A DNA stretch of 64,000 nucleotides from Rikenellaceae bacterium (lineage in GTDB: Bacteria; Bacteroidota; Bacteroidia; Bacteroidales; Rikenellaceae): assembly GCA_015059965.1 (NCBI GenBank), contig SUZM01000006.1, positions 1-64,000 on the forward strand, given 5' to 3'. Below the pieces are notes generated by a model. It ran no database searches. It saw only the letters and a list, made by a program, of their open reading frames with translations, and was not told the DNA's origin. The translations under genes were made by a program, and so were the position numbers. Positions 3,773 to 54,205 of the stretch are shown piece by piece. The first letter of the stretch is position 1. Each line of letters begins with the position of its first letter.

Positions 3773-3778
3773 TTAAGG

Positions 3779-3885
3779 TAGCGGGAGGAGGGTTGACTGC
3801 GCTTCGCTTGTCTTCAATCTCTCGCGACTCGGCAAAGCATGCTAGGCATGCTCTGCTCTCGCTGCTCGGATTGTCCGAACCTCCG
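3779..3885 (-). pseudogene. Degenerate tRNA-fMet 3' half, interrupted
   Basis: TAGCGGGAGGAGG (3779-3791) equals the last 13 bases of the intact tRNA-fMet (reverse strand). CGAACCTCCG (3876-3885) equals its T-loop/T-stem. About 84 bp of foreign sequence, starting TTGACTGCGCT (3793-3803), separates them. The 5' half of the tRNA is absent. The same TTGACTGCGCT follows a tRNA-Lys fragment at 53709. Confidence 0.6.
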
Positions 3886-3908
3886 GTTCTCGTCCTCTCC
3901 CTATATGT

Positions 3909-3946: not shown

Positions 3947-3948
3947 AG

Positions 3949-4052
3949 TAGCGGGAGGAGGACTCGAACGGCGAAGCTGTCGCGGGGATACCTAAAGCGC
4001 AGACCGAAGGTCGAGCAATAAACAGATTATTATCCCCGCAACCTCCGACCTT
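3949..4052 (-). pseudogene. Degenerate tRNA-fMet 3' half with a 70-bp insert in the T-loop
   Basis: 3949-3969 is identical to the last 21 bases of the intact tRNA-fMet, and 4040-4052 (AACCTCCGACCTT) is identical to the adjoining T-stem and variable loop. Between them are exactly 70 bases (3970-4039), with AAC present on both sides. The insert has 9-bp terminal inverted arms GCGGGGATA/TATCCCCGC near its ends. Upstream tRNA parts (D arm, anticodon) are missing, so it is not a functional tRNA. Confidence 0.65.
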
Positions 4053-4086: not shown

Positions 4087-4202
4087 GTTTTGCAAGCGTA
4101 CCATCGCAGGTGGCGTGGTGTAGTGGTGTTGGTTGTGTGCTTGCACACAATGCCATACACCACTACGCCACGAATGCTACGGAGTAGTTCGCTTTGCAAA
4201 AC
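4087..4202. repeat. 116-bp cloverleaf-like palindrome, copy 2
   Basis: Second copy of the element at 3628-3743, same length and same GTTTTG/CAAAAC ends. It abuts the T tract of the tRNA-fMet terminator. A related element of different arm sequence lies in the same position after tRNA-Lys (53977-54100). Confidence 0.8.
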
Positions 4203-4236: not shown

Positions 4237-4240
4237 AAGG

Positions 4241-4313
4241 TAGCGGGAGGAGGACTCGAACCTCCGACCTTTGGGTTATGAGCCCAACGAGCTGCCAACT
4301 GCTCCATCCCGCG
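4241..4313 (-). tRNA. Initiator tRNA-Met (CAT)
   Basis: Minus-strand cloverleaf with D stem GAGC/GCTC, anticodon loop CTCATAA on a stem with three G-C pairs (GGG/CCC) next to the loop, and T arm GGAGG-TTCGAGT-CCTCC. The first base C1 is not paired with T72. The mismatch at 1-72 and the GGG/CCC anticodon stem mark an initiator rather than an elongator tRNA. The discriminator is A; CCA is not encoded. Confidence 0.92.
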
Positions 4314-53664: not shown

Positions 53665-53689
53665 AAGGGAAAAACAAAGTTTTTCCCTT
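53665..53689 (-). terminator. Terminator of third tRNA-Lys fragment
   Basis: AAGGGAAAAAC-AAA-GTTTTTCCCTT, with the minus-strand T tract TTTTCGC following. Adjacent to tRNA fragment 53694-53705. Confidence 0.65.
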
Positions 53690-53693
53690 GCAG

Positions 53694-53774
53694 CACCCCC
53701 TCAGGCGCTTGACTGCGCTACTTGCAGTAGGCAGTCGTGTGCTCGAGAGTTTACACCCTCCCAACCTCCCTGGA
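53694..53774 (-). pseudogene. Degenerate tRNA-Lys 3' end, interrupted
   Basis: CACCCCCTCAGG (53694-53705) differs by one base from the 3' end of the intact tRNA-Lys. TTGACTGCGCT follows at 53709-53719, as in the tRNA-fMet array. CCCTGGA at 53768-53774 may be the remaining T-stem. The homology is short, so the call is tentative. Confidence 0.45.
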
Positions 53775-53817
53775 AGGGAGGCGACTCCAGGGTTCTCGCT
53801 CCCTAAGGGCGCACAAA

Positions 53818-53845
53818 AAAGGGAAAGAGTTTCATCTTTCCCTTT
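53818..53845 (-). terminator. Terminator of second tRNA-Lys fragment
   Basis: AAAGGGAAAGA-GTTTCA-TCTTTCCCTTT with the minus-strand T tract (AAAAAA at 53815-53820 on plus). Confidence 0.7.
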
Positions 53846-53848
53846 CAG

Positions 53849-53944
53849 TACCCCCTCAGGGGCTCGAAGGTTGCTTGCAACCTCACCGAGGGAGTGTCGC
53901 AGTCGCCACTTGTGGCGGTGCGGGAGTACGACCGAGGTAACCCT
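53849..53944 (-). pseudogene. Degenerate tRNA-Lys 3' half with a 70-bp insert
   Basis: TACCCCCTCAGGGGCTCGAA (53849-53868) is identical to the last 20 bases of the intact tRNA-Lys on the reverse strand. AACCCT (53939-53944) continues the T-stem. The 70 bases between (53869-53938) contain GGTTGC-TT-GCAACC and CGCCAC-TT-GTGGCG hairpins. The insert length and T-loop position match the fMet fragment at 3949-4052. The right-hand match is only 6 bases, so that border is uncertain. Confidence 0.5.
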
Positions 53945-53976
53945 CCCTAAATTCGAGTCCACTAACGGGGTAGATT

Positions 53977-54100
53977 GTTTTGGGGCAGATGTTGTTCTGC
54001 ATCAGCAGAATATGAGTAGAGTGATGATAGGTGCGAACTTGTGCGCTGACCTATCATCACTCTATTCATTACACGCACCGCGTACAGCTGCCCCCAAAAC
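53977..54100. repeat. 124-bp cloverleaf-like palindrome after tRNA-Lys
   Basis: Ends GTTTTGGGGCAG and CTGCCCCCAAAAC. Central 19-bp arms (GAGTAGAGTGATGATAGGT, 54014-54032, and 54049-54067, one mismatch). Small side hairpins CTGC-ATCA-GCAG on the left and ACGC-ACC-GCGT on the right. The layout matches the 116-bp elements beside tRNA-fMet, with different arm sequences. Confidence 0.7.
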
Positions 54101-54103
54101 AAA

Positions 54104-54129
54104 AAGCGAGAAACTTTCGTTTCTCGCTT
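54104..54129 (-). terminator. Intrinsic terminator of tRNA-Lys
   Basis: AAGCGAGAAAC-GAAA-GTTTCTCGCTT on the minus strand followed by TTTGTTTTGG. Only 3 bases from the tRNA end. Confidence 0.8.
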
Positions 54130-54132
54130 CAG

Positions 54133-54205
54133 TACCCCCTCAGGGGCTCGAACCCTGGACCCCAACATTAAGAGTGTCGTGCTCTACCAACTGAGCTAAA
54201 GAGGC
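54133..54205 (-). tRNA. tRNA-Lys (CTT)
   Basis: Minus-strand cloverleaf: acceptor GCCTCTT with AGGGGGT (G-U pairs), D arm TAGCTCAGTTGGTAGAGC, anticodon loop CTCTTAA (anticodon CTT), T arm CAGGG-TTCGAGC-CCCTG, discriminator A. No CCA encoded. Confidence 0.92.

Follow-up and report, generated by a model that had tools for sequence, protein, structure and literature searches.

What leaves copies of a tRNA gene's own 3′ end in the DNA behind it? The question is raised by the tRNA-Lys locus of a Rikenellaceae bacterium, which lies in the 64,000-nucleotide stretch analysed here (the window), the start of one contig of a 1.95 Mb genome. Read leftward from tRNA-Lys, the original prediction placed a terminator, a palindrome, an interrupted fragment of the tRNA 3′ end, a terminator, a second fragment and a terminator. 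The sequence and a terminator scan bore out this order, and the coordinates assigned to the parts were off by at most a few bases. The elements run as terminator, palindrome, body, exact 3′ copy, terminator, second unit, degenerate copy and terminator:

54132–54205, minus strand: tRNA-Lys(CTT) (ARAGORN and Rfam)
54103–54130, minus strand: terminator adjoining tRNA-Lys (terminator scan)
53977–54100, minus strand: 124-bp palindrome GTTTTGGGG...CCCCAAAAC behind tRNA-Lys (predicted fold)
53951–53971, plus strand: inverted degenerate copy of the tRNA-Lys 3′ end (score 12)
53939–53944, minus strand: AGGGTT, a T-stem-like half ahead of the insert (sequence and class-wide test)
53869–53938, minus strand: 70-bp body of class B (sequence)
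53848–53868, minus strand: exact 21-nt copy of the tRNA-Lys 3′ end, TTCGAGCCCCTGAGGGGGTAC (sequence match)
about 53815–53846, minus strand: second terminator-like hairpin with a T run (seen by eye; not called by the terminator scan)
53790–53813, plus strand: inverted degenerate copy of the tRNA-Lys 3′ end, opening the second unit (score 11)
53712–53789, minus strand: class E body of the second unit, containing a REP-like hairpin (element shared by 29 stretches)
53694–53711, minus strand: degenerate second copy of the tRNA-Lys 3′ end (16/18 by eye; score 14)
53665–53689, minus strand: third terminator (terminator scan)

The repeated core is the last 21 nt of tRNA-Lys, from the T-loop to C74, and with its flank the identity grows to 25 nt, reaching position 53844. 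The palindrome has a predicted fold of −64.7 kcal/mol for 133 nt, with an outer stem and three hairpins, a layout that recurs at other loci. Rfam matches over the gathering score were limited to 5S and tRNA in the window, and to tRNA at six further unit-bearing loci. The bodies fall into families that were distinguished by eye (A, B, E, H and others; the letters are our own). Class B is the first Lys insert, and bodies related to it were found behind tRNA-Lys of other genomes and behind a tRNA-Ser (L063). The class E element of the second unit is present in 29 stretches of Alistipes, Rikenellaceae and Bacteroidales records, mostly 100–110 bp after tRNA-Lys. At about 449–487 of L091, a class E element with a 3′-like fragment has no tRNA in the upstream DNA examined, and it is possibly detached.

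The tRNA-fMet locus of the same window had been predicted to share this architecture, with two fragments copying the local tRNA. Both the order and the two local copies were recovered:

4239–4313, minus strand: tRNA-Met, the fMet gene (ARAGORN and Rfam)
4087–4202, minus strand: palindrome behind tRNA-fMet (sequence and predicted fold)
3970–4039, minus strand: 70-bp body of class A (class A family comparison)
3948–3969, minus strand: exact 22-nt copy of the tRNA-fMet 3′ end (sequence match)
3885–3901, plus strand: inverted degenerate copy of the tRNA-fMet 3′ end (score 11)
3778–3791, minus strand: second, 14-nt copy of the tRNA-fMet 3′ end (sequence match)

The two loci thus have a common layout and different inserted families. 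The equal insert length of 70 bp, which the original prediction had listed among the shared features, is coincidental, because the Lys insert belongs to class B and the fMet insert to class A, whose bodies range from about 55 to 101 nt. The right border of the Lys insert had been placed on the six bases AGGGTT. These are weak evidence alone, and a likeness to the T-stem is found across the class A elements: over 37 of them, the 7 nt before GTT matched the T-stem of the adjoining tRNA at a mean of 3.19 of 7 positions, compared with 2.53 after permutation (none of 5000 permutations was as high).

A survey of the DNA downstream of every tRNA gene had been proposed as the check on these observations. 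We found 39 tRNA genes in the genome, each taken with its downstream DNA, of which 38 gave testable loci. A direct own copy was required to score at least 14 within 700 bp downstream, and the 3′ ends of the other tRNAs served as the control. Direct own copies were present at 12 of 38 loci, against 0.9% for the 3′ ends of other tRNAs, and inverted own copies (score of at least 12) at 8 of 38 (21%), against 1.8% in the control. The pattern therefore recurs, and own 3′ copies behind tRNAs far exceed chance. Exact copies of 17–28 nt lie behind Thr, Gly, both Lys, fMet, Pro, Glu and three Ser tRNAs, and those at the Asp and Leu loci are shorter or shifted. In the array downstream of tRNA-Asp (L013; G000:C7), a run of N falls within the tandem units; several tRNA units were also seen at contig ends, and such repeats may break assemblies.

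Relatives carry the same pattern, with own copies at 6 of 41 loci in G015, 3 of 9 in G014 and 8 of 29 in G046. They were also present at 4 of 21 loci in G032, from another family within Bacteroidales; two more distant genomes gave none among 13 loci each, and G026 showed an array of tRNA-like repeats only. This row of weak repeats (G026:C3:7994–9733; L259, L262), partly 106 bp apart, adjoins tRNA-Val genes in another family of the order. In the named collection, the records with the Lys element of the window were mostly Alistipes MAGs, many of them from ruminant gut, and the bacterium is accordingly treated as an Alistipes. About a third of the tRNA genes in gut Alistipes carry folded, gene-free units downstream. 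These units measure about 160–320 bp across loci, and tandem arrays occur.

The closest known arrangement is the long-known repeat of the E. coli tyrT locus. In tyrT/tyrV, 178-bp repeats (RtT RNA, RF00391, rttR) are, as here, tandem non-coding units behind a tRNA. Each closes with an exact copy of the terminal 19 nt of tRNA-Tyr, broken in its T-loop, and the Alistipes units likewise copy their own tRNA: at the 12 of 38 loci, the unit ends in the 3′ end of the adjoining tRNA, broken in the T-loop. A partial inverted copy is present inside the tyrT/tyrV unit as well (score 10, below the threshold used here). The RtT repeats concern one tRNA in the locus read, whereas those of Alistipes involve many tRNAs and several body families, with visible gain and loss. 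Unlike in Alistipes, no terminator was seen between the tRNA and the unit at the E. coli tyrT locus. The RF00391 covariance model gave no match over the cut-off in 31 genomes (the E. coli control was positive) or in the unit-bearing loci, and local alignment of nine bodies to RtT against shuffles was not significant (p 0.04 to 0.8). Membership of the RtT family by sequence was rejected on these two results. The units would thus resemble the tyrT repeat in their workings, while family membership lacks sequence support. We found no useful description of tRNA-flanking repeats in Bacteroidetes in an open-access subset of the literature.

Class A is the family of the fMet insert. Its bodies have a 9-bp stem, GCGNGGATA/TATCCNCGC, and a closing hairpin that adjoins the T-loop. 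One pair of this stem is GC, CG or AU across 31 sequences and is broken in none. The inserts ahead of class A bodies usually fold as an outer stem around three hairpins, and 36 of 37 had z < −3 relative to shuffled sequence (median −5.8). The two tRNA-Pro units of G046 share the same inner hairpins, and the outer stem has changed on both sides and still pairs. Class H has a terminal AGTAGCC ahead of AATC. The right end of class A was found in 43 of 121 genomes of the genus (the reversed control pattern gave 0); the class A stem pattern occurred in this genome only within a 149-genome sample of the order, as did the exact class H pattern, which is very strict, within a sample of the phylum.

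Compensatory changes of this kind would fit structured RNAs. The units could be conserved as RNA by-products of RtT type, either freed from the tRNA transcript or expressed from their own promoters, or they could serve as back-up terminators or processing signals; the 3′ copies would then be recognition sites for tRNA-processing enzymes. E. coli has the same anatomy with an annotated RNA, and an involvement in the stringent response has been suggested there (PMC2965389). An intrinsic terminator ahead of each unit, however, should leave most of the unit poorly transcribed, a search of the Lys array for promoter-like sites found none (a weak test for this phylum), and the units are patchy in presence among close relatives. 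We therefore regard an RNA function of this sort as rather unlikely. The position of the folded structures right behind strong terminators would favour a role as DNA, either a folded single strand or a cruciform, over that of an abundant RNA.

The ends of the copies bear on how they arise. With true tandem tRNA genes excluded, most copies start either no more than one base from the T-loop TTCGA or four to five bases inside it, and the start varies by body class (about 0 or +1 versus +4 or +5). Many end just past the discriminator base, often within a base of C74. Such limits would be explained if a transposase or reverse transcriptase inserted DNA behind C74 and duplicated a long target of about 17–22 bp, from the T-loop to C74, so that the 3′ copy is made locally. 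The same process would account for the class-dependent starts and for a single body family being joined to many tRNA ends: class A bodies stand behind 14 different tRNAs and are followed in each case by the matching 3′ end, usually at 21–25 of 23–25 bases. Yet several identities extend beyond C74, and the terminators and palindromes ahead of class A bodies vary between tRNAs, so that the inserted DNA is not one conserved element. No enzyme of this type was found, short of a systematic search. Transposition with long target duplication is, in our view, an unlikely origin.

Gain and loss could be followed at two right flanks of tRNA-Lys that were compared across genomes. Empty and occupied sites, as known from integrative elements, were present at both. 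The first flank is empty in G020; in G014 a 159-bp unit precedes it, and in L106 another unit, of 163 bp. G003 has the second flank empty, and differing units stand before it in L092, L117, G015 and L095. In every insertion compared, the tRNA is intact, a terminator comes with the unit, and the displaced 3′ copy is followed by the older terminator. Units of about 154–163 bp are thus gained, lost or exchanged whole at tRNA-Lys. The original prediction had proposed that some process repeatedly builds these structures from the adjoining tRNA. The recurrence at 12 of 38 loci upholds a repeated process; that the units are simply built from the tRNA does not hold, given their non-tRNA bodies and the exchange of whole units between species.

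Direct repeats of a tRNA 3′ end are the usual scar of integration at tRNA sites, and the arrays could be what is left of islands or prophages that used these ends for attachment and then lost their middle parts. The variable restriction-modification genes behind tRNA-Lys in relatives would suit such a history. The units share with integrative elements of tRNA sites an intact tRNA in front, a displaced 3′ end behind, a direct repeat of ~20 bp, and empty and occupied sites. They differ from them in their size of about 160–320 bp, in having no genes (neither cargo nor integrase genes were found between the repeats) and in the presence of one body family at 14 tRNAs. A similar body and a small size at 14 tRNAs are unlike the outcome of random deletions. 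An intact island bounded by these ends was not encountered, and a large island at tRNA-Lys was rejected, as no distant 3′ copy was present in the downstream DNA examined (up to 20 kb) of 20 relatives. A viral origin was also rejected: viral contigs contained no match to the class A stem pattern or the class H pattern, and two right-end matches were without tRNA context and look like chance. We consider descent from decayed islands quite improbable.

Two further observations concern genes next to tRNAs. Directly behind tRNA-Lys, G001 and G002 have restriction-modification genes in place of the repeat unit (L070, 212–2480; L071, 361–2788). Both carry Eco57I/N6 methylases, and G002 also has a match to a HincII endonuclease; the site resembles a variable hotspot. 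Behind a tRNA-Arg (G000:C3:93418–95068; L131, L133), there are two tyrosine recombinase genes. The nearby copy of the tRNA end is only 9 nt, and this pair looks like a different mode of integration.

In G046, the units of tRNA-Lys(TTT) and tRNA-Gln lie about 4 kb apart and inverted, and their 3′ fragments and terminators are swapped. Such a swap is the trace expected of an inversion between two class A bodies. The roughly 4 kb between the two tRNAs (G046:C1:43153–47637; L240) appears to have been inverted via these bodies. An autonomous element between the inverted class A pairs was considered and rejected in favour of inversion, since the interval contains ordinary-looking genes and two tRNA genes. 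Homologous recombination could also have produced the swap, which would suit a scheme that has no mobile unit and in which the arrays grew by local duplication and template switching at palindromes, with replication errors copying the tRNA end forwards and backwards. Tandem units and inverted tRNA-end copies fit this description. It leaves unexplained the single body family behind 14 tRNAs and the arrival of complete units, new terminators included, at sites that are otherwise empty, and we judge it very improbable.

Two other classes of repeat were compared. Like REP and BIME sequences, the units are short, non-coding, palindromic and alike within a genome, and class E has by eye a REP-like hairpin; unlike them, they are tied to tRNA 3′ ends and contain exact tRNA copies. 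With integron attC sites they share imperfect palindromes in arrays that could act as folded single strands. The attC core GTTRRRY does not fit the GTTCGAN of the units (by eye), and neither cassette genes nor an integron integrase were found near the units.

The reading that we prefer, at about even odds of being right, is that the array consists of tRNA-anchored, non-coding units that recombine at the core formed by the tRNA T-arm and 3′ end, encode no protein and are moved in trans. A unit would be made up of the tRNA 3′ end between the T-loop and C74, a terminator, at least one strong multi-branched hairpin and a short body, the last hairpin of which touches the next copy of the T-loop. 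We infer that exchange would proceed by recombination at this core through a tyrosine recombinase of the host or of a mobile element, acting in trans, and that the folded single strand of the unit may assist it. This would make the units minimal integrative elements that encode no protein. Since a unit brings along both the tRNA 3′ end and a terminator, its insertion would leave the tRNA unharmed. A circle with the 3′ end of one tRNA would, on plain integration, spoil a different tRNA, and therefore a second route is needed between different tRNAs. This route may be recombination from body to body, as in G046, or transposition that duplicates the segment from the T-loop to C74; movement to a new tRNA via the bodies is the less certain part of the scheme.

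Recombination at the tRNA core agrees with the excess of own copies (12 of 38 against 0.9%), the empty and occupied sites at tRNA-Lys, the class A bodies behind 14 tRNAs with matching 3′ ends, the swap in G046, the strong folds and the tandem arrays. Six tyrosine recombinases are present in the genome, four of them not XerC/XerD-like, although none is tied to the units. Bodies at different tRNAs resembled one another at 80% on average when they came from a single genome (25 pairs, most of them in G046). Across genomes the mean was 64% where the tRNA was the same, and it was 51% for the remaining pairs. On the other side, no circular form was seen, a large element with the same ends was not found, and part of the exchange at tRNA-Lys could be ordinary homologous recombination. 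More tentatively, and with the chances against it, the units may be a protein-free mobile element that can settle behind any tRNA, flanked by the T-loop-to-C74 segment of that tRNA, maintained as folded DNA and moved in trans, with RtT as an outlying relative or a parallel case.

The units are real, structured, recurrent and dynamic, and they are a much broader variant of a known and little-understood kind. The E. coli tyrT repeat has so far been an isolated oddity of unexplained origin; its anatomy now recurs at many tRNAs of a single genus, and also in a second family of the order. The empty and filled sites, together with a shared body behind many tRNA ends, make the origin and movement of these units directly testable. 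Short repeats of a tRNA 3′ end need not indicate genomic islands, and this family of structured sites may reveal how recombination exploits the T-arms of tRNAs.
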